IMG/VR virus record: IMGVR_UViG_3300042691_017990
Coordinates: 1-52,863 of that record
Strand: one strand, 5' to 3'
DNA: 52,863 nucleotides
Source of the DNA: a virus
Under the pieces are notes generated by a model, which saw only the letters and a list, made by a program, of their open reading frames with translations, searched no databases and was not told where the DNA came from. The translations under genes and the position numbers were made by a program. Of the stretch, positions 1 to 51,098 are shown piece after piece (position 1 is the stretch's first letter; the number at the start of each line of letters is the position of its first letter).

Positions 1-1126
1 AGAAAGTGTTTTGATAATCTCTATCAATAATTTGTTGTAGTGTTCCCCAACCAATGTTGTTATTTTCTACAACAAGCAACGCACTGTTATATTCAGTTGC
101 AATTGCCACCAACAAGTTACCATAATCTTTGGTAGTTAACTGACCCTTATACTCCGCTACTTGTGTCAATGTGTCAACATCAAATACATGAAATGCACTA
201 TAGTCAGCACCATCACCACGAGCACAGTCAGCAGATACGATATAGTTTTTGCTATTGTCTGGACGATCCCAAATCCACAAATCTTGACTTGCTCCACGTT
301 TTTCAACTGGATCTTTAATGTAAGTTTGTTTGTAAAACTCAAGAGTATCAACCGACACAACTTGATTACCAGATGTTGAAAAGTCACAATCACACTCTTG
401 AGCAGCACCTTTTACACCAGACAATTCAGTTTGTTTGTCACGCCAAGCTTGATCACGTTCTGGATGTAAATGCCATGGTAATCTAATTGTATTGAAACCA
501 TTCTCTCCAGCTTCGGCAGCAACCCATGTCTTGTGGAAAAAGTTACCAACACCATTAGGGGTCGATAACAAAATAGCTCTACCACCAGTTGACAACGTAT
601 ACTGAGCAGACAACCAAATTTCTTCAATACCATCAATGAATGCAGCTTCGTCAATGATTAGAAGTGACAATGCGGCAGAACGACCTGCGGTTCCAGCACT
701 TGACACAGCTTTAATTTGAGAACCATTTTTAAGACGTAGTGACAAACGATTATCTTCTACACATGGAACTTTTAACCATGTAGGAAGATTGTCATTGGCA
801 AATCTAACCTTTGTAACAATTTCTTTTGCAGTCTCTTGCGTGATACTGATGATCAAAATGTTCTTGTCTGTATGGAACGTCATCAACCACAAACTATATG
901 CTGCCGTCAAAGTAGAAATACCCATCTGACGACTCTTTAGAATGATGTTGAGACTATGATCCACCATGTCTTGTAGAGCACCTTCTTGGAAGGGATACAA
1001 GTCAAAGTTGCAGGTTCCCTTGACGGGATGTTGAATTTTGACATACTTCTTCATGAAGTATATCGGATTTTCAACACACTTCTTATACTCCTGCTTTATT
1101 ATTTCTCTTAGATTTTGCTGACTCAT
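1..1126 (-). CDS. Terminase large subunit (partial, C-terminus beyond window)
   Basis: ATP-driven DNA packaging motor and headful nuclease, T4 gp17 family, acting at the portal. The first 375 residues are present and the reading frame runs off the window edge. Visible motifs: a Walker A-like segment SRQMGIST at residues 65-72, in which the usual P-loop lysine is Ile and a lysine sits just upstream at 64; Walker B LLIIDE at 155-160; coupling motif LLSTPNG at 186-192; and the RNase H-fold nuclease with D300 in VSADCARGDGADYS and E354 in VVENNNIGWG. T4 gp17 is about 610 residues, so roughly 200 residues are missing. The ATG at 1126-1124 lies inside the 3' end of the upstream zinc-ribbon gene (44 bp overlap), indicating translational coupling. 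The assignment is secure. Confidence 0.93.
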   Translation of the reverse strand, partial: MSQQNLREIIKQEYKKCVENPIYFMKKYVKIQHPVKGTCNFDLYPFQEGALQDMVDHSLNIILKSRQMGISTLTAAYSLWLMTFHTDKNILIISITQETAKEIVTKVRFANDNLPTWLKVPCVEDNRLSLRLKNGSQIKAVSSAGTAGRSAALSLLIIDEAAFIDGIEEIWLSAQYTLSTGGRAILLSTPNGVGNFFHKTWVAAEAGENGFNTIRLPWHLHPERDQAWRDKQTELSGVKGAAQECDCDFSTSGNQVVSVDTLEFYKQTYIKDPVEKRGASQDLWIWDRPDNSKNYIVSADCARGDGADYSAFHVFDVDTLTQVAEYKGQLTTKDYGNLLVAIATEYNSALLVVENNNIGWGTLQQIIDRDYQNTF

Positions 1127-1748: not shown

Positions 1749-2801
1749 TTATTTCCCAAAACCACTTTGTAGTCCCTTAATAATGAAACTACCAGTTATT
1801 TTAAATGGACTACTGTGAATACTAGGATCTCTGACCACGATTCCTTCGTGTTTTTCAAGATCACCAATTTCACTAGTAGCATTCTTTAATATTTCATCAC
1901 CAAGTTTGATTGTTGCCAAATATACAACTGTATCATTGACAACTTTATCTATATCTTGTCCCTCAAAATCCATAGCAATATTCTTACTAGCAACAGCCTT
2001 TTGGAACTGTTCACGGGTAATCAATGGTGTTTGAATATTTACATCTTTTAACCAATCCTTCAAACTCTTTGTGACTGGATTGCCTTGTGGATACAAAGTA
2101 ACCTTTTCACCGAGTGGTTTGGAGAGGTTTGGCTTGGTCTTAAACTTGGTGTCAACACTACCCAATACCTTAAATCCACGTTTCTTAGCAAACACATTCA
2201 ACTTATTGATATATGATTGCATGACTGTCTTATCATAAGGAATTTCAGTAGCTACTCTGGATTTGACACTACCATCCTTACCAAACGTCTTGGGTTTGAT
2301 TTCTTTCAAACCGTGAATTGCCAAGAAGTTACCAATGTCTTCGTAACCCAAAACATTTGTTTGTCCCTCAACATATTCAACGTTCAACAAAATGTTTGGA
2401 TTGTTCAACAAACCAAGAGCCTTCAATTCGTTTGTTGTTGATGGAATTGCATCATCAAAAATTTGAATTACAGTAGAACCAATCTTGATGAATCCATGTT
2501 CAGCACCTGTTTCTGGATTTGGTAAAAATCTAGCAGATAGATCTTGTGGACGCATTCCCTTGATGTCTAATGGTTTTGCACTACCACGGTCCATCACAAA
2601 TTCTCCATTAACTAAACGAATACTTGCATTAACACCGTCAATCTTTACACTGCCAGTTCCCTTTTCCAAAGAATTAATGGACTTTTGAAAGATATCAACT
2701 AGTTGTTTTCCGTTGGATGCAAAGTCAAATGGATGTTCCATGTGGCCACCAGCACCACCTTCTCTAAGAACTTCCGACAAAATATTACTCAGCTTTATCA
2801 T
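1749..2801 (-). CDS. ATP-dependent RNA/DNA ligase-like nucleotidyltransferase with capsid-leader-like N-terminus
   Basis: A 350-residue protein of the covalent nucleotidyltransferase (ligase/capping) superfamily. Motif I is KIDG at residues 53-56 (K53 the presumed adenylated lysine), motif III is VEYVEG at 141-146, motif IV is EGIVVRD at 319-325 and motif V is FKITGSFIIKG at 333-343, in the family order and spacing for one adenylation domain. No separate OB or zinc domain is evident after motif V, which resembles compact RNA ligases more than replicative DNA ligases. The first ten residues, MIKLSNILSE, resemble the T4 internal-protein capsid-targeting peptide (MKTYQEFIAE) and end in the L-x-E prohead protease consensus; see the finding. 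The start overlaps the 3' end of the upstream reductase gene by 17 bp. Substrate (RNA or DNA) is unknown. Confidence 0.72.
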   Translation of the reverse strand: MIKLSNILSEVLREGGAGGHMEHPFDFASNGKQLVDIFQKSINSLEKGTGSVKIDGVNASIRLVNGEFVMDRGSAKPLDIKGMRPQDLSARFLPNPETGAEHGFIKIGSTVIQIFDDAIPSTTNELKALGLLNNPNILLNVEYVEGQTNVLGYEDIGNFLAIHGLKEIKPKTFGKDGSVKSRVATEIPYDKTVMQSYINKLNVFAKKRGFKVLGSVDTKFKTKPNLSKPLGEKVTLYPQGNPVTKSLKDWLKDVNIQTPLITREQFQKAVASKNIAMDFEGQDIDKVVNDTVVYLATIKLGDEILKNATSEIGDLEKHEGIVVRDPSIHSSPFKITGSFIIKGLQSGFGK

Positions 2802-3567
2802 ATGGTTTAATAAATGTTTTTTCGAATGTAGATACGCCTTTTAAGTATGAACGTTTGGTTTCATCAAGGGCATCATCTGTAAATTGCCAATTCCAAAACA
2901 ATTGGTCTGGTGTCTTGAATCCAAAAAATTCAAGAACACTCTTTTGTGTTTGAACAACGTGTTTACCATTCCAGTTCTGACCAACAGCAATAAATCCAGC
3001 ATCAATATCTTTAACTAGATTGGACTCACCCAAAGTCGAGTGTCTATTTTCAATCCAAGTCAAACGTTCAATCAACTTTTGATAATAACCGTTGGCTTGA
3101 CCCCATCTGACACTTGCAAAAAATAATACACAATCACTCTCAAACAACTCCTTACTGATCTTCCAAAGTTCGTCACCCTTCTCATTTACACTAGCCCAAC
3201 AACGATGATGACCACTTGGATTTTGTTCTTTGTTTTTCAATAAAGCACCAATTGTTCCACAATGGTTGCCACCAAACTCTTTGTTGCTACTCACATTACC
3301 TTCACATGGAACGATGTGTAGTTTTGTTGTGTCAATCAATGTTACTTTTTCTTTGCCAAGCAACTCTTGAATTTTAATGGCTAACTGACTGCTTTTTGGA
3401 ACATCGTCTTTATGTTGAGACCAACGATTACTTGTAGTCAATAGTAACACTTTGTTTTTACTACGCAAATAATCCATGGTCTTCTTGTATTTTTTAGCAT
3501 ACAAGTCCATGTCTTGTTCACTTGCTGGCAATTTAGCCTCTGTTAGAAGGTCTGATAGACTAATCAT
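2785..3567 (-). CDS. Flavodoxin-fold NAD(P)H:FMN reductase-like protein with capsid-leader-like N-terminus
   Basis: A 260-residue protein. After a 35-residue lead, KVLLLTTSNRW (about residues 39-49) looks like the first beta strand and phosphate loop of the NADPH-dependent FMN reductase/flavodoxin fold; LFESDCVLFFASVRWGQANGYYQKLIERL (split here only for description) matches the second FMN-contact region of that family, and KDIDAGFIAVGQNWNGK a later strand. A Cys/His-rich stretch (PCEGN, GGNHC, HHRCW) could hold a metal or Fe-S site, as in iron-sulfur flavoproteins, but this is speculative. The N-terminus MISLSDLLTE/A fits the T4 capsid-targeting and L-x-E cleavage pattern. The gene is the first after the terminator at 3644-3665, with the ATATTTAT element 5 nt before its ATG and no clear Shine-Dalgarno. 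Confidence 0.6.
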   Translation of the reverse strand: MISLSDLLTEAKLPASEQDMDLYAKKYKKTMDYLRSKNKVLLLTTSNRWSQHKDDVPKSSQLAIKIQELLGKEKVTLIDTTKLHIVPCEGNVSSNKEFGGNHCGTIGALLKNKEQNPSGHHRCWASVNEKGDELWKISKELFESDCVLFFASVRWGQANGYYQKLIERLTWIENRHSTLGESNLVKDIDAGFIAVGQNWNGKHVVQTQKSVLEFFGFKTPDQLFWNWQFTDDALDETKRSYLKGVSTFEKTFIKPYDKAE

Positions 3568-3572
3568 CGCAT

Positions 3573-3580
3573 ATAAATAT
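3573..3580 (-). promoter_or_regulatory. ATATTTAT element, candidate late promoter
   Basis: The coding strand reads ATATTTAT, then 5 nt, then the ATG at 3567. It lies between the sheath terminator and the reductase gene, so transcription must restart here or read through. Confidence 0.5.
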
Positions 3581-3687: not shown

Positions 3688-6600
3688 TTATTCACCGAAA
3701 GTAGCACCAGTTGGCAGAATGTTGAAGTCAAGCAATATGAATTCAGCAGTTCTGGTTGGTTGAATGAAGATTTGACCGTAAAGAATATTGCGATCAATCA
3801 AGTCAGGAGTGTTGTTTTCAGCATCCATCTTAACTTGGTAAGCATAGATACCGTTACGTTGTTGAACACTCTCCAAGTATGGATTGACGATACTCAAGAA
3901 ACGGTTACGTGTAGCAGCTACGTTTTGTTCGAAGACCAAGTAGTTGCTTGAACTTGCGATAAACTTCTTCAAGTTGATCAACAAGCGACGAACATTCACA
4001 CGATCCAAGGCACTTGGTTGGATTTGAAGAGTCTTTTGACCCCAAACCACGATACCTTGACCTGGGAATGCGGCAATTGGATTGACACGGTTCTCATAGA
4101 GAGTGTCACGTTCAGCATGAGTCAATCTGTCAAGAACTTGAACAGCTTGTGGGATTCCACCACGGTTTAGACCGGCTGGAGCATACCATTCAGCAGCTGC
4201 GTTGTCGTTAGCGGCATAAACCGATGGCAACACCACAGAAGGTGGAACACTGATAATCTTGTTCAAGTTAGTGTCGAGGATCTTGACCCATGGGTAGTAA
4301 GTTGCGACGTAGTTACTATCAATTGTAGCAACCGTGTTGATTGCGGCATTGATCAAACCTACGCTTTGGTTACTTGCTGGGAACACCACGTTATCCATGA
4401 TGTAGAAACAATCTCCACGAGCTTCACACATATCAATGGTGATCTCGGTGACATAGCTGTGTTGTTCACGGAAGATACCTGGCAACACGATCAAGTTGAT
4501 ATCAAACTCATCGGCGTTACCGAGAGCAGTGATACATTGCTTGTATGCGATACTACCTGGGCTTGTAATGTTTGTGCAATCCAAACCTTGGGTATTACCA
4601 GCAGTGATGTCAGATCCAACGTTGATTGGAATTGCTGGCCATTGACCATCAAATCCACCTTGGAATCCAATCACGAACTTACGAAGTCTTACATAAGTAG
4701 ATTCGTTGACTGGATCGTATACTGAAGGAATACTACCACTCAAACTTGGAGCGAGCAACGAGCCTGTGCTTGCTGCTACACCTTGAGCATAGTATGAACA
4801 ATCAGCTGTTCCCCATACCTTGGCTTCAAGATCGAAGTCGATGTTTTCACCGTTTTGATCTGCACCACCGTAGTATGGAAGTGGCTTGAAGTATTGCTTT
4901 GTATCGTTCTCAATACCAACTCCGAACGAAGCGGTAGGATATAGAGCAGAGATTTCAGCTCCACTTTCTGGAACTTCACCGAACACTGTTCCCGATGGAT
5001 ACTTACCAGGTCCAAGACCATAGATAGATGCCTTACTGTAACGAACTGCTGGCAACAAGTTACCAAGAGTTCCGTCTACTGGAGTTGAATATGATTCGAA
5101 ACCGTATGGAACAACCGATTGTGGGTATGCCACATCAGTCATTTCGATACGAACATACTTACTCAAGTTTACGTAAGTTCCGTATTCTACGATCTTACTG
5201 GTGTTCGTAATGTAAGCATAACGATCACCAATACGACGTGCAACAAAGTTTGCACTGTCTGGATCAAGGTTCAAGTTTTGGAAGATTTCGAGATACTTAG
5301 GACGCTTATCGGTGTCACTGTAAGCACGAACAGCAAGAGTGAATGAACCCCAGTTGCTGCCTGGAACAGTTCCGGCCAACTTAACGTTGCTAATTTCGAT
5401 CTTATACTTCTTGTTGCTCAAGCTACCATCACTTAGAGTGTGAACCTTGAACAACTTGAACTTGGTAGGAACAGCAACTTCATCAGCGCTTCCCTTGAAT
5501 GGAGCAATTTGTTGACTGTAGATCCATGGTGTCTTAGCATTTGTGATAGCAAATTGTGAATCACCACTGTTAGGATCTAGTGAGTATTGATCCAAGAACT
5601 TCATAGACTCACCAACACTGAACGAAGCAGATGGAGCAGTTGCTACTTGCAATCTCCAACCACCACCCTCCGCATTTGGACGGGTCTTTTCAGCAACGAA
5701 TCTCTTGATGGTATCTTCGAAGAGGATGTAGTTATAAGCAGCCTCAATCTTTTGACCAGCAATTTGCTTAGAAGGATTACCAACAGTTGGATCAATTCCG
5801 AAAACGTCCTTGATGTAGTTGTTGTCGTCTTCATTCAAACTGAAGTCATAGTAACCATAGGTTCCGTCAGAAACGTTACCATCAGTATCAGTCCAGTTGT
5901 ATCTCAAGATAAGTTGATAAACGTTGTCGTTTGGATTTACAATACCTTGATATGGATATATTGAACTGGTCAATTGACTTACAGCAGAGGTATCGAATCC
6001 GTATACTTCATAGTCGCTACTGAATTGTGTCGAAGCATTTTGGGTGTTTGCCAAAACTGCGAGCACAACTGGTGAACGACCAGTAGTAGATGGATTACAT
6101 GGATCAGATCCACCCGAACCATCAGCTTGGAAGTTTCCTGTAAATGCTCCGTAAGAACCACTCACAAGACCCAAGAATCTCAATGCGGCACCGCAAGTTG
6201 CGGCACTACGAACAGTGGCAAAACTACCACTCTTGACATACAATGTGCTTGTAGCATCAAATGTATCTTGATCATATGCCAATGTAATATTGGTTATAGC
6301 ACCACCAATATTCAACAAGCTTGAAGTCAACAAGAAGGAAACTTCAGTGCTTTCTTGAATTGCTCGAGCAATTTGTGTTTGTGGTGTAGCTGTGCTACTT
6401 CCTTGAGCACTAGAACTCAAGAAGAAATACAAACCAACAGATCCCGAAGGTGCCAAGTTGCCACCATCATCGAAGTATCTGCTGAGTTGTGCAGTTTCTA
6501 CTGTTCCAAGACTTACTTGTTTACCAGCATACAACTTACTACCACTCAAGTTACCAGTTCCATCATAGTTGGCTGGGAAACCACTGGTCAATGCGGCACT

Positions 6601-7659
6601 ACCAAATCTTGCATTGATACTACCACTAATTGTCAAGTATGAACAATCAAATGTTGAATAAAGATGTGGCGAGAATGCGGTGTTCGCACCAGTTTCTCTG
6701 TGAGAACACAACTTTGCATTTGCACCAACACTTGTATCCAATACTACGAATGGGAACTTGACTTGTTGATTATTGATCTTAGTTACCGAAGCAGTCAAAT
6801 AAGATCCAGATCCGGCTGGGAATCCGGCCACAATGTTGCCCGTAATACCACTATCTATCAAAATAGAGGTAAATGCACCAGAACCAGACTTGAAAATATA
6901 TCCACTTGGTGCCCATTGTGTGATATCAAACCATGCCAAAGCATAGTCAGAACCACCACCCGAAGGAGTTACCTTTAGTCCGTTATCAACAATCGAAGCA
7001 CTAAATGCTGAATCAGCATTATATGTAGTCAAACTTACCAATTGATAAGCATCTTTCAATGCTACAAGAGAAGCAGACAAACTGTTGATGTCTGGCAAAC
7101 TTGAATTTGCACCAACGAAATCAGCAATTTCTTGATTTGTAGTGTTAGAACCTGTGATCCAGATACCTGCGAGAGGGTTTGTTCTAGTTAGAGCGTTTGG
7201 TTGAATTTCCCATGATGATGCGCTGTGAACATATTGAATGTTCGCAGTATAGTCATCACTGTTCAAATACATGAACGAAGCAGTGGTCAAAGCACCAATG
7301 TCTGCTGTTCTCAACCATTGACCTGGCTCAGCATAAACCACCAATGGGTTCTTTTGCCAGTAACCAGTCAATCCACCAACACGGACGATAGTTACAACGC
7401 CTTGTTGAATGAGATATTCTTTTGCAGTGTAGGGACCGTAGTATACACCGTCAGCAATACCGAAGCGTTGTTCTAGTGTTGCTACGTCAGTTATAATATT
7501 TGGGTAAAACGCAGGTCCGTCAGCAAACGGAGCCACGATTGCACCACCGATGTTGGCTACGCCTTGGGCTAGCCCCGATAAGTCATTTTCTCTGGTGAAT
7601 ACACCAGGACTTACTATTTGTTGTGTTGGACTCCAGCGTCCACCTTCTTGAATTGGCAT
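3688..7659 (-). CDS. Contractile tail sheath protein (very long, 1323 aa)
   Basis: Forms the contractile outer tube of the tail, gp18 family. The N-terminus (SPGVFTRENDLSG, then GPAFYPNIITDVATLEQRFG) and the C-terminus (TLYENRVNPIAAFPGQGIVVWGQKTL, followed by VNVRRLLINLKKFI and a final RTAEFILLDFNI) are the conserved sheath core. At 1323 residues it is about twice T4 gp18 (659 residues); the excess sits in the middle (roughly residues 120-1050) and is Ser/Thr/Gly-rich, probably surface-exposed insertion domains. A good Shine-Dalgarno (AAAGGA) precedes the ATG by about 10 nt, and the ATATTTAT element lies 56 nt upstream. It is transcribed alone: its own terminator follows. Confidence 0.92.
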   Translation of the reverse strand: MPIQEGGRWSPTQQIVSPGVFTRENDLSGLAQGVANIGGAIVAPFADGPAFYPNIITDVATLEQRFGIADGVYYGPYTAKEYLIQQGVVTIVRVGGLTGYWQKNPLVVYAEPGQWLRTADIGALTTASFMYLNSDDYTANIQYVHSASSWEIQPNALTRTNPLAGIWITGSNTTNQEIADFVGANSSLPDINSLSASLVALKDAYQLVSLTTYNADSAFSASIVDNGLKVTPSGGGSDYALAWFDITQWAPSGYIFKSGSGAFTSILIDSGITGNIVAGFPAGSGSYLTASVTKINNQQVKFPFVVLDTSVGANAKLCSHRETGANTAFSPHLYSTFDCSYLTISGSINARFGSAALTSGFPANYDGTGNLSGSKLYAGKQVSLGTVETAQLSRYFDDGGNLAPSGSVGLYFFLSSSAQGSSTATPQTQIARAIQESTEVSFLLTSSLLNIGGAITNITLAYDQDTFDATSTLYVKSGSFATVRSAATCGAALRFLGLVSGSYGAFTGNFQADGSGGSDPCNPSTTGRSPVVLAVLANTQNASTQFSSDYEVYGFDTSAVSQLTSSIYPYQGIVNPNDNVYQLILRYNWTDTDGNVSDGTYGYYDFSLNEDDNNYIKDVFGIDPTVGNPSKQIAGQKIEAAYNYILFEDTIKRFVAEKTRPNAEGGGWRLQVATAPSASFSVGESMKFLDQYSLDPNSGDSQFAITNAKTPWIYSQQIAPFKGSADEVAVPTKFKLFKVHTLSDGSLSNKKYKIEISNVKLAGTVPGSNWGSFTLAVRAYSDTDKRPKYLEIFQNLNLDPDSANFVARRIGDRYAYITNTSKIVEYGTYVNLSKYVRIEMTDVAYPQSVVPYGFESYSTPVDGTLGNLLPAVRYSKASIYGLGPGKYPSGTVFGEVPESGAEISALYPTASFGVGIENDTKQYFKPLPYYGGADQNGENIDFDLEAKVWGTADCSYYAQGVAASTGSLLAPSLSGSIPSVYDPVNESTYVRLRKFVIGFQGGFDGQWPAIPINVGSDITAGNTQGLDCTNITSPGSIAYKQCITALGNADEFDINLIVLPGIFREQHSYVTEITIDMCEARGDCFYIMDNVVFPASNQSVGLINAAINTVATIDSNYVATYYPWVKILDTNLNKIISVPPSVVLPSVYAANDNAAAEWYAPAGLNRGGIPQAVQVLDRLTHAERDTLYENRVNPIAAFPGQGIVVWGQKTLQIQPSALDRVNVRRLLINLKKFIASSSNYLVFEQNVAATRNRFLSIVNPYLESVQQRNGIYAYQVKMDAENNTPDLIDRNILYGQIFIQPTRTAEFILLDFNILPTGATFGE

Positions 7660-12965: not shown

Positions 12966-15557
12966 TTAGGTGTCCCATTTAACAACAATATTTATTGGAA
13001 TTTGACCATTGTTTTTTATAGGAGTTGCAATTTTTCCAACTGCTACTAGGTCGGCACCAGCATATAATCCAACCTGTGTAATGTATGGTGCCAAATAAGA
13101 ACCAGTAGGATCTACAGACGAACTAAAGTTGTAATTGAAAAATTCAGCTTTGATAGTATTTTGACTGCCTTTACCAGTTTGGTTGTCCAAGAAAGAAATG
13201 ATGTCGTCATAGTTTTTCCTTCTTGATGTTGGTGTGATATACTGTTGGTAATTTTCAACCGTCAAATTTTCTATAAAGTAGTTCCAGATCATATACGCAT
13301 CTGCGTAATTTACCATACCATCTTTATTTACATCAAAGTCTTTGGTTGCCAATTCACACTTTAACTCTGGAGTCAATCTATTGTTTGTATAATCAACCAT
13401 CGAAGAACTGAAGTATCCAAAGATGCTTTCTTGAACATCTCCAGACACCAATACATCCCACCATGATTCAACGTGAGTTGTAGTCAACTTATAGTTAATA
13501 TATCTCAAAATAATATCCAAATTACTAAAGTCAAATGTTTCTTTGTTGATCACACAATATGGTCCAACATAAGATGCAGTAACAGCAGTTGGATTTGTAG
13601 AAATATTAAACTCGCCGGGTTCTACAGTGCAAATGTATTGTTTTTCATGTAGAGTTATTTGACTTTGGTATTCTCCGTAAATATAGTCATCCAATTGTTG
13701 TAATGGATTCTTCAATATATCCGACAATATACTACCAGTATTATTGACCACAAACTTATTGTAACTATAAAATATGTTACCTATATTTGGATTGGTTTGA
13801 AGATCACCAAAATCATAAATAAACGCTCTACCAAATACTGAATCTGTGACATTTGAATCTTGTTCCATCACAAGCACAATTGACCCACTATCAGTTGCGT
13901 TTAAGTTGTTACCATCACAACCACAGATTTCATCTTCCATTCTGAAATAAAATGAACTGATAGATGGTCCATCTGAGTTACATGTAAACAAACCACTGCC
14001 GCTTTGTTCAGCTGCATATGGTTCTGACAAATACAAATCATCATTCAAAGGTGCTGGTGAACCAATTACCAAATTTAAATCTGATAATGCTACTGAGGCA
14101 CCAAATGCGGTAAAACTTTCGTCTAACTTTTTTCTGTATCCGATTGGTGTGGTTGTTGCCATCTTCAACGTCAAATTATTATCACATGACCCCGTAGAAA
14201 TCTTGTATAACATTGCTTGACCGTTGAATGTGCTAGCACCAAAGTCGTTTGTTTCAAAGTTGATATTGTATCTGTTTACCGACGAAGATAGATACAAACT
14301 AGAGAATGGAAAATATGGTTTTGGAGAACCAGCAAGAACATAATGACCGTTTATGTCAACACTGTATCCAAACATATTGTCTTTGAACGTATTTGTGTCA
14401 CCGTAGATCTTCTCCAATAGAACATATTGTTTGGTTCCAACAGCAGGTATGTTGTAATAATAAATTGCACCACGTTGTCTCAACGGTTGAGAACCAGTCA
14501 ATGCCATCGAACTACTGTATTCGTAGTATATCAGATCATTTGGAGCACCAACAATCAGATTATCTTTAGCAATAGCAACTGAATATCCATATCTAGTTAT
14601 TGACTGACTGATAGGCAACCAGTCAAGATCCCCATCACCTTGCAATTTTAACCACTTTGAAGAAGTATCTTGTGTTAGAGTTTGAGTAAGTTCCCAACTT
14701 CCATTAATCAGATCACCCTCTCTAAAATATACAAAGACTTTGCTACCTGTTTGTGGAGCAGATGCTATTACCAATCTATCTTCATTGTATTTATCAATAT
14801 AAACCGATGATCCAAAATACAAATCAGCACCATTTGATGATGAAATAGTTTGGTAGTATGTGTAATAACCACATCCAGATCCAGTATACAAATAGATGTC
14901 AACGGCGCCTCTGTTGGAATTTCTGAATGGTGAACTTATTGCCAAAAAGTTGTTTGACACGGCAACCGCACGACCAAATCCTTCAGCTGCCGATCCAGTA
15001 ACTCCACAAAATGGACTGTTTGGCAAAGAAAATAAACTGTCATTTTCTACTGAACAAGACCCCGTTGATGCTTCATCGTAAATTTTGTATATGTCTACGG
15101 TTGCATAATTTTGATCAATACTAGCAATACTTTGACTAAAAGCAATGTCTGATATTACCAAGAATCGTTCGCATATTGCCAAAGCAGAACCATAAGACGT
15201 TTGTTTTTGTATTACAGTTCCGTCTTCCAATATCAAAAAGTCACAGGCTAATGAATTATCAGCCAAAGACCCACTTTCATATCTTAATGATGCTGTATAG
15301 GCAGAACTTGCACTTTGTTCTGTATAATATGATAGTAGTTCACCGTGGTCGAGAGGACTGCCTCGTCTATAGGTCTTTGCAAAAGAATAATTGGTAGTGA
15401 ACCTGTTTTTTTGATAAACCAACACTTCACCAAGTCTTGCAAATCCCTCATTACAAGAATATGGCTTTGAATTGGTATTTGAAACCGCTATGTAGTTACC
15501 GTTTGTAACCACATGTTGGCCAAAGTTCTCATTATAGATGTTTAACAAATTCGACAT
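12966..15557 (-). CDS. FG-GAP beta-propeller / dockerin-like surface protein
   Basis: An 863-residue virion surface candidate. Several repeats of the FG-GAP (integrin-alpha/beta-propeller) type are visible: FGRAVAVSNNFLAISSP, YGYSVAIAKDNLIVGAP, FGYSVDINGHYVLAGSP and FGASVALSDLNLVIGSP, spaced about 80-110 residues apart through residues ~50-500. Near residue 745 a dockerin/EF-hand calcium loop, DVNKDGMVNYAD, appears. The last about 45 residues (YITQVGLYAGADLVAVGKI and after) closely resemble the C-terminus of the structural protein at 23734-24837, suggesting a common virion attachment module. Its likely role is host or glycan binding. The ATATTTAT element is 5 nt before the ATG and no Shine-Dalgarno is seen. 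Confidence 0.7.
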   Translation of the reverse strand: MSNLLNIYNENFGQHVVTNGNYIAVSNTNSKPYSCNEGFARLGEVLVYQKNRFTTNYSFAKTYRRGSPLDHGELLSYYTEQSASSAYTASLRYESGSLADNSLACDFLILEDGTVIQKQTSYGSALAICERFLVISDIAFSQSIASIDQNYATVDIYKIYDEASTGSCSVENDSLFSLPNSPFCGVTGSAAEGFGRAVAVSNNFLAISSPFRNSNRGAVDIYLYTGSGCGYYTYYQTISSSNGADLYFGSSVYIDKYNEDRLVIASAPQTGSKVFVYFREGDLINGSWELTQTLTQDTSSKWLKLQGDGDLDWLPISQSITRYGYSVAIAKDNLIVGAPNDLIYYEYSSSMALTGSQPLRQRGAIYYYNIPAVGTKQYVLLEKIYGDTNTFKDNMFGYSVDINGHYVLAGSPKPYFPFSSLYLSSSVNRYNINFETNDFGASTFNGQAMLYKISTGSCDNNLTLKMATTTPIGYRKKLDESFTAFGASVALSDLNLVIGSPAPLNDDLYLSEPYAAEQSGSGLFTCNSDGPSISSFYFRMEDEICGCDGNNLNATDSGSIVLVMEQDSNVTDSVFGRAFIYDFGDLQTNPNIGNIFYSYNKFVVNNTGSILSDILKNPLQQLDDYIYGEYQSQITLHEKQYICTVEPGEFNISTNPTAVTASYVGPYCVINKETFDFSNLDIILRYINYKLTTTHVESWWDVLVSGDVQESIFGYFSSSMVDYTNNRLTPELKCELATKDFDVNKDGMVNYADAYMIWNYFIENLTVENYQQYITPTSRRKNYDDIISFLDNQTGKGSQNTIKAEFFNYNFSSSVDPTGSYLAPYITQVGLYAGADLVAVGKIATPIKNNGQIPINIVVKWDT

Positions 15558-15609: not shown

Positions 15610-16458
15610 TTATGAACGTTTCAATTCAAGCACACCGTTGTTCCAATATGTTGGTATTTTAATCCACCCATCACAATAAATATCCTTGGTATCTTCTCTC
15701 AAATCCGGTCCAAACCAAGTATCTGGGGTTATGACCACTTTGTTGTCGGTCCTAGATAACCAAGCTCCCCACCAACTAAATGACGAGTTTGAGATGATAA
15801 AGTGATCACACAATGACAACAACCATATACCTTCTTGATCACGATACCTATTTTCTTCTATGAACACACTATTGGGTAGTTTGACATTTTGTTTACACCA
15901 ATTTATATCATCACTCATGATAATCAAATGGTCATGTTTAGGTAAATGTTTGTGTGCTTCTTCAATATACTCAACTGATATAACTGGATGTCTAGTTGGT
16001 TGAGTCAAATAATCGCCTCGTCTCACATTCAGTGCCGCTACAGTTGAATTTTCTAAAAATGGAAAGTCCTTCAGTGCTTTATCCACAAATTCTCTAGGTG
16101 GTGAGTATAGGTCTCTGATTGCTTCTGTAAACTTTCCAAAATACTTTTCTGATTGAAACCACCCAATGTAAACTGTCGGTTTATGATTTGCCGGTGGCAA
16201 CGGAGAATGTGCAAATGTTCCAGTAATAAACTCAGCATCGTGAATACCTTCTGATTTTTTGACATCAAAGTCTAACTTTCGAAACAAATTTTTTTCCAAC
16301 AACCCAGAACAACTGTCTTGAGATGGTGCTATGAATTGTCTGTTATACTCCAAAGCTTTAGCGTATCCATGTGCTAATTGAAACATCATGTTACCGGTTC
16401 TTCCTTGTAATCTGCTACAAATAAAGTTCTTAGAAAATGTTGTTGCTTTTTTTCTCAT
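15610..16458 (-). CDS. Alpha-1,2-fucosyltransferase-like glycosyltransferase (GT11)
   Basis: Predicted transfer of fucose from GDP-fucose to a glycan acceptor. GT11 motifs: GRTGNMMFQLA at residues 19-29 (donor-binding loop), NVRRGDY at 144-150 (family motif HxRRxDY, with Asn in place of His here) and ISNSSFSWWGAW at 222-233. Its 282 residues match the family. It is the last gene of a five-gene glycosyltransferase operon, 2 bp after the preceding gene. No GDP-fucose synthesis genes occur in the window, so the donor must come from the host or from phage genes elsewhere. Confidence 0.85.
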   Translation of the reverse strand: MRKKATTFSKNFICSRLQGRTGNMMFQLAHGYAKALEYNRQFIAPSQDSCSGLLEKNLFRKLDFDVKKSEGIHDAEFITGTFAHSPLPPANHKPTVYIGWFQSEKYFGKFTEAIRDLYSPPREFVDKALKDFPFLENSTVAALNVRRGDYLTQPTRHPVISVEYIEEAHKHLPKHDHLIIMSDDINWCKQNVKLPNSVFIEENRYRDQEGIWLLSLCDHFIISNSSFSWWGAWLSRTDNKVVITPDTWFGPDLREDTKDIYCDGWIKIPTYWNNGVLELKRS

Positions 16459-16460
16459 TG

Positions 16461-17126
16461 TTATTCTCCATTTAGTTTAACTAGTTTGCCTTTTATGTAA
16501 TTCTTCTTGAAATGTTCTAATGGCGGCGTGTCACCAAACGCATCCAAATCACTTGAAATGGTTCGTTGATAACTACTCAATGGATAAACGACATATTTGT
16601 TGATCCACGGTCTTTGTCCTATCCATCCATCAAACGCCGAATCCTCAAATGGTTTGAAATCTAGTAGTTTCTCCAATCCTCTCCGTGATACACCATAACC
16701 GTGTAAAGTAAGCACAGTATCAGCTTTTAGTAAATTTGGGGTCACTTGATGAACTTCTTTATCAAAAATATATCCTCCAAAGTAGACTATATCCCAATCT
16801 GAAAAATTGACCAACTGATCCAATCCATTTTGTATGTTATCTATACCGTTTGTTTCTTCATTCAGAAACACAAAATCATCTTCAAACACAACTATATTGT
16901 TGTATCCTTTACTATAAGCATCTTGAAACGTTTTATAAAAGGAATAACTACAAAAATGTTGTTTGTAAGTCACATCAGGTCGTAACAAAGAGTCTTCTGC
17001 GGACCTCCTTTCCAAAAAATCAATCAGACCATACTGAGACATCTGTTGTTCAAACAAAGTTCTTCTGTCTGGCCTTCTATCTAAATTTATGTAATAACCC
17101 TTTTCAAAAAAATCTTGTATTTTCAT
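16461..17126 (-). CDS. Glycosyltransferase family 25-like protein
   Basis: A 221-residue GT25 (LPS galactosyltransferase/LgtB-like) protein. YYINLDRRPDRR at residues 11-22 is the family N-terminal signature, and FEDDFVF from residue 81 supplies the acidic metal/sugar-nucleotide motif. ERRSAED at 39-45 matches the family pattern after the first helix. The acceptor and sugar are unknown. The ATG overlaps the stop of the upstream glycosyltransferase by 4 bp (ATGA). Confidence 0.8.
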   Translation of the reverse strand: MKIQDFFEKGYYINLDRRPDRRTLFEQQMSQYGLIDFLERRSAEDSLLRPDVTYKQHFCSYSFYKTFQDAYSKGYNNIVVFEDDFVFLNEETNGIDNIQNGLDQLVNFSDWDIVYFGGYIFDKEVHQVTPNLLKADTVLTLHGYGVSRRGLEKLLDFKPFEDSAFDGWIGQRPWINKYVVYPLSSYQRTISSDLDAFGDTPPLEHFKKNYIKGKLVKLNGE

Positions 17127-17836
17127 GTTAGTATGTGTTCATACTCTTCAATATTAAATATTTCTCCCAAGATACTTTTGCTACGTTTCAAGAAATGTAT
17201 TCGTTTATCGGGTATTCTGATTTGGAAGTTATGAAATGTGTCACTGTCATATTCCGTTCCATTACCATAACTGAATGGTGGATAACCAAACCCTCCACCA
17301 TATTTCCAAGTGTGATCTGTTGGACAATATGTTGGATAAGACAAAACGATTCGTCTTCCACGCTTCTCCAACTCTCTGGTTAAAGCTTCATATCCATCCG
17401 CTTCAGCTAAATTACCGTCTGGATTAGGATACATTTGTGCATGAACAGATTTGAAAGAAGAATTGCTCCATACTTTGTATGACATATTAAACACACCACC
17501 ATTTACAAACGGCGGAGTTCTATATGGATTTATGTCTGGAAAAACGTTTGACGCTTGTGCATTTCCATAAACTGTATTTTGATCGGAAATAATATCAATC
17601 GTTTTCTTCAACCAATTTTTTGATGTAGGAAAACAATCTACATCAAATAAAGATATAAAATCGTAATCAAAGTGTGTATCCAAATAACCTTGAATTGCTC
17701 CAGTATGTCTTGCTTTTTGTCCATCCCATCCAATTTGTTCAACGTCCAAATCAAAATGATTAAACACTCGTTTTTGAAGTGAAACGATTTCTTGAGGCAA
17801 ATCGGTCTGATAAAACGAAACAATTTTGTGTATCAT
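17123..17836 (-). CDS. GT-A fold glycosyltransferase
   Basis: A 237-residue protein with ISLFDVDCFP at about residues 61-70, giving the D65-x-D67 metal-binding pair of GT-A enzymes, and a FVNGGVFNMS segment typical of the acceptor side of small phage and bacterial glycosyltransferases. A His-containing C-terminal region (HFLKRS) may supply the late metal ligand. No specific CAZy family is assigned. Both ends overlap neighbours by 4 bp, so the gene is translationally coupled inside the glycosylation operon. Confidence 0.75.
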   Translation of the reverse strand: MIHKIVSFYQTDLPQEIVSLQKRVFNHFDLDVEQIGWDGQKARHTGAIQGYLDTHFDYDFISLFDVDCFPTSKNWLKKTIDIISDQNTVYGNAQASNVFPDINPYRTPPFVNGGVFNMSYKVWSNSSFKSVHAQMYPNPDGNLAEADGYEALTRELEKRGRRIVLSYPTYCPTDHTWKYGGGFGYPPFSYGNGTEYDSDTFHNFQIRIPDKRIHFLKRSKSILGEIFNIEEYEHILT

Positions 17837-19011
17837 ACCAACGTATTAATAAAGTCTACCCACATAGAACCAATCTTTTTAGAATTGAACTTGTCCAAAA
17901 TATACTGTTTACCTTTGGCTCTCAATTCGTCTTTTACTTGAGGATTGTTCTCCAAATACATTATCTTCTCCACTATTTTTTCAATATTGTCTTTGAAAAT
18001 ACCCTCTTCATCTTTAGATAGCTGTTCTTTCTGCATCTTGACGGGATCAGCCTTGTCTGGAAAGTCTATCCAAATACAATGTCCTTCAAAATTCTCAGGC
18101 AATGCTCCCAAAGGATAAGTGATTGGTATTGCTCCTAAAGCTATAGCTTCGGCCACAACACACGAAAACGTATCTTTATGAACATCTTTATATGGAGTGT
18201 AAAGTGGATAAACAAAATATTCACTTTCTGCCAAATGTTTAAACAGAGTTTTCTTGTCCACACCATCGTGTTTTCTAAAAAATGAATCTCTGTGATCATG
18301 TGTTGCCAACAAATAATCAAAAGCGTGAAACTCACAATCAGTAAACCCTAACTGTCTAACAGCTTCTACAGCAACATTTCCACCTCTAGCCCAAGCAGCA
18401 TGAAATATGAACTTGTGTTTCTTCTTTGTCAAATTCATATCACACACCTCATTTACTATATCATCCATTATGGGATTGGGTATCAATGTTTGTTTGACAT
18501 CTGGTATCTGTGATTTGATATGATCAATGGTGGATTGATTCATTCCCTTCTCCCAATTTGAAATATTAACAAAGCCCAACTTCAAATTGTTGTCTCTGGT
18601 ATAATTCATAATTTCACTCAGACCATAAAGCCATTGCATATGATTCCAATAAATCAATGCTTTGGTTACTTTAATTGGAAGTTCGTTGTATTTAGCAAAC
18701 CACAAACTATTGATCAAAATATCAAACTCTCTGTTTTCTATACCTTCAAACTGTAGATTTGTGTATATGACATTTCTAACTTTCATGCCTGGAACATAAA
18801 CACGACCGTTTTCTTTATACAATTTTTCCAATTGTGGTTCCAAAGCCTCGGTAACAAAAACAACTTCATGTCCTTGATCAGCCAAATATTCAGCCACAAC
18901 TATAGAACTACTGTCGGTTCCACTTCCACCACCACCTCCATAACGAAGTGTATCTCCGTTTAGATAGTTGCTACGTCTACTGTTGCCTATGACTGTAAAT
19001 ACAATTCTCAT
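17833..19011 (-). CDS. GT-B fold glycosyltransferase (GT4-like)
   Basis: A 392-residue two-domain enzyme. The N-terminal domain begins MRIVFTVIGN with a glycine-rich GGGGSGTDSS loop at about residues 25-36, and the C-terminal domain has SCVVAEAIALGAIPITY, the donor-binding E-x7-E-like region of GT4 glycosyltransferases. The start at 19011 (ATGA overlap with the upstream stop) is preferred to an ATG 27 bp further upstream, because it begins exactly at the first beta strand. The transferred sugar is unknown. Confidence 0.8.
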   Translation of the reverse strand: MRIVFTVIGNSRRSNYLNGDTLRYGGGGGSGTDSSSIVVAEYLADQGHEVVFVTEALEPQLEKLYKENGRVYVPGMKVRNVIYTNLQFEGIENREFDILINSLWFAKYNELPIKVTKALIYWNHMQWLYGLSEIMNYTRDNNLKLGFVNISNWEKGMNQSTIDHIKSQIPDVKQTLIPNPIMDDIVNEVCDMNLTKKKHKFIFHAAWARGGNVAVEAVRQLGFTDCEFHAFDYLLATHDHRDSFFRKHDGVDKKTLFKHLAESEYFVYPLYTPYKDVHKDTFSCVVAEAIALGAIPITYPLGALPENFEGHCIWIDFPDKADPVKMQKEQLSKDEEGIFKDNIEKIVEKIMYLENNPQVKDELRAKGKQYILDKFNSKKIGSMWVDFINTLV

Positions 19012-20255
19012 ATGTTCTTTTCGTATCGTGGAGTCCATCCAGATTTGGTGTGACCATACATAACCAACTTATCAGGTCTGTTTTCACTCATAAACTTGGC
19101 AGTATGAGTAGTCTGTGTATAGTTGAACACATTTGGATTCTCACTTGGTTTAAAATCAACTCTGTGTAAATTGTTACCAAACTTATCAATAATACCCAAT
19201 GTGATAAACTCATATCCATCCAATGCATTATTCTTGAAAAACTCAACATCCCAGTTTACCACAATATTGTAATTTTCCATGGTAAACTGTTCTTCCCATA
19301 CACCTGGATTTGGTGGTTCGTTAACCTTTAGAGTGTATCCTTGGATTCTACATTTCTTAAAGTCAAATCCAAACGCAACTTCATAGTCACGAAGAGTTCG
19401 TTCAGTTCCCAATCCATAAACACCAAATGGAATATTGTGATTCTCTTGACCAAACAATTGTCTGACTAGATTGCGTGACAACACATCACGTTCACCACTG
19501 GTAACCTTGATCTGTTCTGTCTTGTGTCCATGATCATCCCAATGTTTGACACGATAGTTTCGGGTATACTCATGCCACATAATCATTCTGTATGGAGAAA
19601 AGAAATCATATCCATGGCTGTAGGCTCTGAGACTCATAGAGGTTTCTTCTGTGTAACCACCAAAATAAACTCTTGGGTCATACTGAACTTCCTCACAGAA
19701 CTTGCCTTGTGTAAAAATAAAATGTCCAGACAATGTTCTTGCACGAATAACTTTGGTTCTTGACTTGTAGTCTTGTATAAACCAAGGCATGCTCATCAAC
19801 AACTTGTCATAAGAAAACTCATATTGACTCATCAAACAAGGAACTGGATTCCATGTTGACGGATCGTCCTTTGGATTGAATGGTGTGCAGTAAGTTGTAA
19901 TTATTGGCTTCTTACAATACTCAAGAGCTTGGTTATAGTCTTCGATACACATTGCATCCCAGTCTTGAACAAATCTATGATGTGAATCAATTTGTAGTGT
20001 ATACTCTTCGTCCTTCCACAACTTTTGTGTTAGGTTTCTTGCCCACCCCAAACCCTCACTCTTTTGATATTGAACATCTACAACTCTGAATCTAGGATCA
20101 TTGGTAAATTCTTCCAACGACTCAGTATCATCACGTTGCCAACAAATGCCAAACGTCAGATTTTCTGGATGTTTGGCTTTGTTAATTAGATCTCGGATTG
20201 TAGGGACCAACTCTGGGTCTCTATAACTAGCAATTTGAACAAATATTTTAGACAT
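19008..20255 (-). CDS. GlcNAc-type polypeptide glycosyltransferase-like protein (GT60-like)
   Basis: A 415-residue protein. FVQIASYRDPELVPTIRDL at the N-terminus, followed by LTFGICWQ, is the signature of the Pfam family related to Dictyostelium Skp1 GlcNAc-transferase, which adds GlcNAc to hydroxyproline or other protein sites. QIDSHHRF at about residues 88-95 supplies the DxD-equivalent (D90-S-H92), and GYTEETSMSLRAYSHGYD the conserved C-terminal catalytic region. First gene of the operon. The ATG at 20255 is chosen over an upstream GTG. A protein-directed transferase beside Pro-Thr-rich virion proteins is suggestive of virion glycosylation (inference). Confidence 0.8.
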   Translation of the reverse strand: MSKIFVQIASYRDPELVPTIRDLINKAKHPENLTFGICWQRDDTESLEEFTNDPRFRVVDVQYQKSEGLGWARNLTQKLWKDEEYTLQIDSHHRFVQDWDAMCIEDYNQALEYCKKPIITTYCTPFNPKDDPSTWNPVPCLMSQYEFSYDKLLMSMPWFIQDYKSRTKVIRARTLSGHFIFTQGKFCEEVQYDPRVYFGGYTEETSMSLRAYSHGYDFFSPYRMIMWHEYTRNYRVKHWDDHGHKTEQIKVTSGERDVLSRNLVRQLFGQENHNIPFGVYGLGTERTLRDYEVAFGFDFKKCRIQGYTLKVNEPPNPGVWEEQFTMENYNIVVNWDVEFFKNNALDGYEFITLGIIDKFGNNLHRVDFKPSENPNVFNYTQTTHTAKFMSENRPDKLVMYGHTKSGWTPRYEKNI

Positions 20256-20313
20256 AACCACTGTTTATATAGATATTATAACAATTCAAACCATTATTAT
20301 AAAATGACAGGTA

Positions 20314-34796: not shown

Positions 34797-35234
34797 TTAT
34801 TTCTTTTCTCCACGCTTTTTATCAACAGCTTTCAGTAGTGATCTATAATCTCTGGTAACTGCTTGAGCAACCGCTTTTACTGGTTCTGGAGCATGTTCAG
34901 TCACAGATTCAGTCAACTTGTCAACAACACTTGGTTCGCCACTACCCATGATACTTGCCAACCCACCTTCTTGAGGCACACCACCAGTTGTTTCATTCAA
35001 TATTTGATTCAATACTGGATTGCTAGTGTATTTGACAAACTTCTTTTTGTTTTGTGATTGTTCTACAGGCTGTTCCGTCACTGATTCACTCACCAAAGAT
35101 GAAAATGATGGTGACGAATCTGATCTTGAAATTGATTCTTTAGAAAATGCTTCCAACAAGCAGTTTTTTACTTCTTCTCTGACAGCATTTCTTACTTCTT
35201 GACGAATGTATTCTTTAAGAGTATCTAGTTTCAT
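34797..35234 (-). CDS. Hypothetical virion-associated protein
   Basis: A 145-residue protein with a charged N-terminal helix (EYIRQEVRNAVREEVKNCLLEAF), a Ser-rich spacer, then KKFVKYTSNPVLNQILNETTGGVP, a segment I associate with small proteins in the baseplate clusters of T4-like marine phages. The C-terminus is basic (DKKRGEKK). No enzyme motif. It lies 6 bp upstream of gp25 and 9 bp downstream of the glycine-zipper protein. Confidence 0.6.
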   Translation of the reverse strand: MKLDTLKEYIRQEVRNAVREEVKNCLLEAFSKESISRSDSSPSFSSLVSESVTEQPVEQSQNKKKFVKYTSNPVLNQILNETTGGVPQEGGLASIMGSGEPSVVDKLTESVTEHAPEPVKAVAQAVTRDYRSLLKAVDKKRGEKK

Positions 35235-50495: not shown

Positions 50496-50675
50496 TTACG
50501 GAGTTGTAGCCGTAGATTCTTCTACAACAGCCTTGATTTCGTTTTCAATTTCCTTGATCTTTTCCTTGTATCCGGCTGCTACATCCTTAAAGTCCTTCTT
50601 TACGAAGAGAAGCTTCTCGGTTAGTTCGTATACTTTCTTTTGTGCGTCTGCTTTGTTTAATTTGAGTTGGCTCAT
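50496..50675 (-). CDS. Small helical protein, 59 residues
   Basis: Reads MSQLKLNKADAQKKVYELTE and ends VVEESTATTP. It is predicted as two amphipathic helices with Lys/Glu heptads, a probable coiled coil. Its ATG overlaps the stop of the upstream ADP-ribosyltransferase-like gene as ATGA, supporting coupled translation. Function unknown; it could be a partner or regulator of that protein. Confidence 0.65.
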   Translation of the reverse strand: MSQLKLNKADAQKKVYELTEKLLFVKKDFKDVAAGYKEKIKEIENEIKAVVEESTATTP

Positions 50676-51085
50676 AACTTTGATAAATCTATAATTTGTT
50701 TTACTGCTTCTAACGGTATATAACTAGTAACAAAGTTGCCTGGATCAACACTTTTTAAATCGGGTAACTTATTTTTATCTACGACGATTATGACTCCCTC
50801 TTTCTTATCACGATAGTTTACCAAAGCAAATCTAGCACTCAATTTGAAATCGCTAGCTAGATAACTACCATAGATGTTACGTGTGTTACCTTTACCCTTC
50901 GAAGTTACTCTGCCATGCTTTTGTAATAGATCCAACTCCTTCTTGGACATGCCTCTGAACAAATCGTCTGACGAAAAGTTATTGTATGTATCAAGTGTGT
51001 CAGCAATATGCTTGAGTTCGCCTTGAGGCTCCCAAATCAAATAATCATATATGCTAGCTTCGTATAGCAAACTGTAGGATTTCAT
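50672..51085 (-). CDS. ADP-ribosyltransferase-like protein with capsid-leader-like N-terminus
   Basis: A 137-residue protein. DLFRGMSKKEL (R44 in LFRG) matches the first beta strand of ADP-ribosyltransferase (ART) folds; GSYLASDFKLSARFAL (residues 73-88) matches the second block (Y/S-x-A-S/T-D...A..FA); EGVIIVVDKNKLPDL the core strands; and SYIPLEAVKQIIDL at the end carries E124 as a candidate catalytic Glu. The family call is by pattern only and could be wrong. The N-terminus MKSYSLLYE/A fits the T4 capsid-targeting pattern with L-x-E cleavage, and T4 packages the ART Alt in the same way. The gene is coupled to the 59-residue helical gene. Confidence 0.5.
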   Translation of the reverse strand: MKSYSLLYEASIYDYLIWEPQGELKHIADTLDTYNNFSSDDLFRGMSKKELDLLQKHGRVTSKGKGNTRNIYGSYLASDFKLSARFALVNYRDKKEGVIIVVDKNKLPDLKSVDPGNFVTSYIPLEAVKQIIDLSKL

Positions 51086-51090
51086 TGAAT

Positions 51091-51098
51091 ATAAATAT
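51091..51098. promoter_or_regulatory. Shared ATAAATAT/ATATTTAT element between divergent genes
   Basis: Lies in the 23-bp gap between the minus ATG at 51085 (5 nt away) and the plus ATG at 51109 (10 nt away). The sequence is nearly palindromic (GTATATTTATATTC), so it could serve both directions. Confidence 0.45.

Follow-up and report, generated by a model that had tools for sequence, protein, structure and literature searches.

Bacteriophage T4 has internal proteins that carry a capsid targeting sequence and are injected (PMC9026906, PMC3012670). In one of these, IPIII, targeting is set by residues 4 and 7 and processing by residues 8 and 10, the T4 motif being L/I-x-E, and it has already been proposed that such a tag enables T4-like phages to package a variety of proteins (PMC9026906). 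The T4 leaders whose sequences were inspected are MKTYQEFIAE/A (IPII and IPIII), MAKINELLRE/S (gp24), MLKEQLIAE/A (gp22), and MELITELFDE/D (Alt), where the slash marks the cut, and gp23 has an internal site, FLTE/A. To our knowledge, no cargo polyproteins are known in T4, and little is known of the stage before phage transcription except in T4 and a few giant phages.

Two further systems invite comparison. In SPN3US and phiKZ, the prohead protease trims propeptides from packaged head and ejection proteins after motifs ending in E; those propeptides are mostly long (often >100 residues) and end in A-x-E or S-x-E, whereas the leaders described here comprise 9-14 residues and end in (L/I)-x-E (PMC5694885). 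Polyvalent proteins (Iyer et al. 2017, PMC5512222) are multi-enzyme phage chains predicted to enter with the DNA, and in this they resemble the polyproteins reported below. In contrast, their domains are described as freed by embedded peptidase domains, whereas a scan of polyproteins from marine relatives found no such domain; in these, the ligase joint is a site of the prohead-protease type, suited to cutting in trans. Neither RNA ligase fusions of this kind nor a superoxide dismutase (SOD) was found in the passages of that article consulted.

Compared with IPI-III and Alt of T4, the phages studied here share a 10-residue N-terminal tag that is hydrophobic at 4, 7, and 8, an (L/I)xE site of the kind cut by gp21, and mutually unrelated bodies behind the tag, but the candidate cargo belongs to other families (ligase-like, CCA-adding, Mom-like, GP88, and more) and to an uncultured group of phages. 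The tag itself is of the known T4 kind; what goes beyond the descriptions that we found is the choice of cargo proteins and, chiefly, their arrangement as polyproteins with joints of the prohead-protease type. Apart from the polyvalent-protein paper, a literature search on prohead protease and polyproteins returned nothing on this subject by title or abstract, and no report of a phage SOD was found with the phrases tried.

Three leader-bearing proteins in the window

The window, i.e., the whole stretch of DNA analysed, is a 52.9-kb virus record with 47 called genes, and its left end truncates the gene of the large terminase (gp17-like; 1..1126, minus strand; PHROG terminase, E 1.6e-40). A preliminary description had singled out the N-termini MIKLSNILSE/V, MISLSDLLTE/A, and MKSYSLLYE/A, and these are indeed present at the starts of lig (1749..2801), fla (2785..3567), and art (50672..51085), all of which begin with ATG on the minus strand and encode candidate cargo proteins of 350, 260, and 137 aa, respectively. 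The lig leader (2760..2801, minus strand) reads MIKLSNILSE(10)VLRE(14) and thus has a possible first site at E10 and a preferred one at E14, in the context L-R-E/GGAGGHM. The fla leader (3538..3567, minus strand) fits the T4-derived pattern given below, and the art leader (51059..51085, minus strand) is one residue shorter, its E being residue 9. Judging from sequence, we consider it quite probable that these leaders are T4-type capsid targeting sequences on packaged, and probably injected, cargo.

The bodies behind the leaders had been described as ligase-like, flavodoxin-like, and ART-like, and these assignments fared differently. The ligase-like reading of lig, which would make it a covalent nucleotidyltransferase, is moderately supported. 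Its motifs stand: KIDG is invariant in close relatives, EGIVVRD is present, and HEG.V..D is conserved, corresponding to KxDG and motif IV (EGxVxR) of the RNA/DNA ligase superfamily. The fold match is weak, in that the AlphaFold model (pLDDT 78; residues 1-19 below 50) found RNA ligases as its best matches in a Foldseek search of the PDB at E 0.009-0.02, and the Pfam RNA_ligase match, at 14 bits, lies under the cut-off. The flavodoxin-like label for fla could not be upheld: it had no match in Pfam, PHROG, or NCBIfam and no flavodoxin hit in the PDB. A search for bacterial homologues of fla found none. For its part, art had no family hit, its AlphaFold model (pLDDT 39) has no usable fold, and the hhalign comparison with T4 Alt/ModA/ModB reached a probability of 8.6 over 28 columns, a weak match that does not confirm the ART-like label. 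A PDB sequence search with profiles of the three proteins gave nothing useful, and no GenBank relatives of any of them were found at the cut-offs used.

Two other genes of the window were rejected as tagged proteins. The protein at 34797-35234, formerly offered as a weaker fourth candidate, has a coiled-coil-like sequence and an N-terminus that varies among relatives (MKIEVLKEF or MNAEQLRKII), and that at 12966-15557 (MSNLLNIYNE) matches a loose pattern alone, with Y at P3. Elsewhere in the window, the tail sheath protein (3688-7659, minus strand) has 1323 aa, approximately double the length in T4, and its sheath matches fall mostly in the C-terminal third, and a row of glycosyltransferase-looking genes (with motifs such as GRTGNMMFQ and NLDRRPDR) lies amid structural genes at 15610-20261 (minus strand).

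Frequency of the leader among N-termini

A pattern with a small P1' residue, ^M.{4,5}[FLI][LIF].E[AGSVTD], was derived from the T4 leaders alone (IPII, IPIII, gp24, gp22, and Alt). In the window it matches 3/47 genes, which are exactly lig, fla, and art (binomial p ~1e-4 at the internal-Met rate). Across the window and eight related contigs (nine in all, with 1222 genes with a usable start in 620 clusters), it matches 34/1222 N-termini (2.8%) versus 8/4246 internal Met positions (0.19%), and a loose pattern matches 44/1229 versus 23/4688. At the level of gene clusters there are 12 hits among the 620, where ~1 is expected (binomial p 4e-9), although the 12 include a ligase fragment, a doubtful singleton, and GP88 twice and so amount to ~9 independent families. 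The three leader N-termini exceed chance.

The search for further N-termini of this type, which had been suggested along with the original three, extended the tag in relatives to ~9 unrelated families of the phage group. Tagged members include a GP88 family protein (PF17338, 1.6e-34; MKFIDLLTE/A), a CCA tRNA nucleotidyltransferase (PF01743, 8e-21; MITFKNLLVE/G), a Mom-like protein (PF25680, 1e-24; MIKLKELILE/G), an HTH protein (MIKLKDLFKE/S), a basic KPKG module (MISLTDILNEVLSE/SDPK), and two proteins in which VYRGVNP follows soon after the leader. In the Mom-like cluster the seven other members are leaderless, one of them in the same contig as the tagged member.

Many leader genes share an upstream element as well. 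TATTTAT stands at -12 from the start codon of both fla (3573..3579, minus strand) and art (51091..51097, minus strand), and in all nine contigs it occurs at -13 to -11 before ~158 genes, with T at -1 in 71%; no Shine-Dalgarno sequence was found before the starts in these contigs. It precedes 29/51 leader genes versus 162/918 others (p 1.6e-9), and, with gene types judged by eye, it is found before tape-measure-like and tail-like genes and not before the replication-like genes examined. From its sequence and placement, TATTTAT is likely a late promoter, possibly that of the group, and looks like a -10-type promoter yielding leaderless mRNAs. Given such starts, and given that AT-rich codons favour M-I-K-L, the similar N-termini might merely mirror the translation-start composition of a leaderless, AT-rich class of late genes. 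This is most improbable, since start composition leaves both the E and the register of (L/I)xE unexplained: when E is exchanged for one of the decoys D, K, S, N, or Q (the limit on P1' being lifted), 0.3-1.2% of N-termini match, versus 2.9% with E. In addition, the same (L/I)xE site is retained deep within polyproteins (see below).

Conservation of the leaders

Relatives were collected from IMG/VR (76 loci for lig, the best 80 of 165 loci for fla, and 20 loci for art), and positions 4, 7, 8, and 10 of the leaders are kept in >100 of them. Among the best 80 of the 165 fla loci, L4, L8, and E10 are invariant and position 7 is kept at 93%, while Y4 and LLYE are unchanged in 11 aligned art sequences. 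In lig, E10 is conserved in 81% of relatives and E14 in 94%. Lack of conservation had been named at the outset as evidence against a tag, and the leaders of all three proteins proved to be kept.

The 32 distinct 10-residue leaders are hydrophobic at positions 4 (97%), 7 (100%), and 8 (100%), and polar at 3, 5, and 6; some of them had been selected with a pattern in which 7, 8, and 10 are set in advance, and the lig and fla sets by E10 only. Individual lig leaders deviate: V after E10 is frequent in them and absent from the T4 examples inspected, E10 is lost in some relatives (two, L058 and L091, read MIKLNDILNK), and the whole leader is missing in one interrupted gene (L056).

Prohead protease and head genes

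No S77/gp21-type protease was found in the window, because this is a fragment and ends short of that gene. In relatives, the portal, protease, scaffold, and capsid genes sit past the terminase end (order read in G013), and the protease family PF03420 is present in 15/16 related contigs (E ~1e-30). These include the near-identical contig G013, whose lig and fla proteins are 100% identical to those of the window and whose protease gene lies ~4 kb past the end of the terminase gene. The search for a gp21-type protease, on which the preliminary description had made its reading depend, was thus answered outside the window. PF03420 was also found in 10/16 contigs carrying polyproteins or their domains, the remaining contigs being mostly shorter. 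The capsid protein of the relatives has a conserved LLDE/A near residue 60, at the place where gp23 is cut. These comparisons support well a shared, cleavable leader of the T4 capsid-targeting type on unrelated bodies, in phages that also encode a gp21-family protease.

Some proteins near the protease start in a comparable manner: the small coiled-coil protein adjoining it begins MxLKHLLE/N in 8/8 genomes, and the scaffold protein begins MSDLLKE/S. The lig and fla genes themselves lie within the head/tail gene cluster. The leaders could accordingly mark structural or scaffold-associated proteins that the prohead protease trims as the head matures and that are not injected. We regard this as unlikely, as the tagged and polyprotein bodies include clear enzymes with no obvious structural role (the CCA-adding and Mom matches given above, and SOD), and as close relatives differ in whether they have several of the tagged families.

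On the preferred reading, i.e., targeting of cargo to the head, the hydrophobic residues at 4, 7, and 8 would dock the new protein on the prohead core, and the gp21-type protease, to judge from the site and the protease gene, would then cut after (L/I)-x-E and free the enzyme. By analogy with T4, the freed enzyme would remain in the head and, when the next cell is infected, exit with the DNA. The tag is modular, as it is found on ~9 unrelated families of the group.

Two other features of the head genes may be mentioned. Seven genomes, G001-G007, have a conserved, leaderless Mom-like DNA-modification protein beside the major capsid gene (e.g., G003 84276-85049 and G006 62501-63277), and a ribosomal protein S21 gene lies within the head gene cluster of Microcystis phage Mel-JY01 (L317:22183-22410).

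Ligase junction and polyproteins

The ligase also occurs in a second arrangement. In three marine relatives it lies within a protein of 734-736 aa that starts with MNELTKYLVE/S or similar and continues with an HxGH adenylyltransferase-like domain, and LSE or LLE stands directly before GGAGGHM. A wider search in marine relatives found polyproteins of 571-1410 aa of which the ligase forms the end. Over 66 distinct pre-ligase contexts, N-terminal or internal, P1 is E in 65/66 and P3 is L/I in 64/66, with P2 variable. Two stand-alone ligases (L291 and L297) have classic leaders that run directly into the same junction, MNSFREYLLLE/GGAAGHM and MIAFKEFLLLE/GGAAGHM. Since the E14 site, and not E10, persists when the ligase sits in polyproteins, the window ligase is probably cut after E14, rather than after E10 as had first been supposed.

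The sequence that follows the site, GGA(A/G)GHM, is itself nearly invariant, and art and fla are without confirmed function; E/GGAGGHM could then be part of the ligase fold and the remaining leaders chance. We give this very little credence. P2 varies while P1 and P3 are fixed, residues 1-19 of the ligase are modelled with low confidence, and 12 tagged clusters stand against ~1 expected. A similar rule also holds at unrelated junctions: in nearly all of 33 contexts the KPKG module follows a leader when on its own (VLSE/SDPK) or (L/I/V/M)xE when within a polyprotein, and in L287 the HxGH adenylyltransferase is followed by LLVE/GG and a different module. The junction pattern fits a protease site retained at domain joints.

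The closest GenBank terminases are those of two cultured phages, Mel-JY01 (57%) and Flavobacterium phage immuto (52%), both of which have an annotated prohead protease. Mel-JY01 encodes a 639-aa adenylyltransferase-ligase protein (WWT39297) with the leader MGKLINILLSE and the junction IAE/GGLGGHM. In immuto, the same region holds a 907-aa protein with an adenylyltransferase domain, and there is a tagged 146-aa protein (gp093; MISIYNILKE/V).

The polyproteins are varied in content. That at L241:1431-5660 contains an Fe/Mn superoxide dismutase (both Pfam domains, 1e-28) and a plastocyanin-type cupredoxin (4e-16), and others contain DUF192, an acetyltransferase, and weak RegB-like matches. The adenylyltransferase domain weakly resembles nicotinate/nicotinamide-nucleotide adenylyltransferases. 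No embedded peptidase was found in eight scanned polyproteins from marine relatives, and KNV73_gp088 of immuto has a weak M91 hit. Tested against the interior of the adenylyltransferase domain, the (L/I)xE motif is not enriched between polyprotein domains (0.63% in each). Many polyproteins have no N-terminal tag, so the leader does not account for their targeting, a point against the preferred reading.

In the marine relatives, then, the same candidate cargo domains are linked end to end as polyproteins, and their joints carry (L/I)-x-E sites. We put at about even the chance that this widespread T4-like group brings mosaic cargo polyproteins into the prohead, where the prohead protease cuts them in trans into separate enzymes for injection (NMN-adenylyltransferase-like, RNA-ligase-like, SOD, cupredoxin, acetyltransferase, and others), with modules switching between this form and the tagged single-protein form seen in the window. 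If the polyprotein is indeed cut in the prohead, it would represent a new route for delivering several enzymes in fixed proportion.

Taken with the tagged families, these data suggest that phages of this group deliver several preformed enzymes to the cell along with the DNA. Phage head contents may thereby become predictable from sequence, a tagged protein or a polyprotein module behind (L/I)xE being a candidate injected effector, and the enzymes named here (ligase-like, CCA-adding, Mom-like, GP88, SOD, NMN-adenylyltransferase-like, and more) form a list of candidates for action before transcription. Phage RNA ligases and nucleotidyltransferases have been tied to tRNA repair (PMC9503650), and from the enzyme types RNA repair and NAD supply are plausible roles. 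More speculatively, and with the odds somewhat against it, the RNA-ligase-like, CCA-adding, and NMN-adenylyltransferase-like enzymes and the Mom-like acetyltransferase would repair RNA, restore NAD, or resist defence in the first minutes of infection.

Finally, in one relative (G007 67188-68042; L206) an HNH-like ORF splits the ligase gene between GGAGGH and M, in the manner of a mobile intron or homing element.
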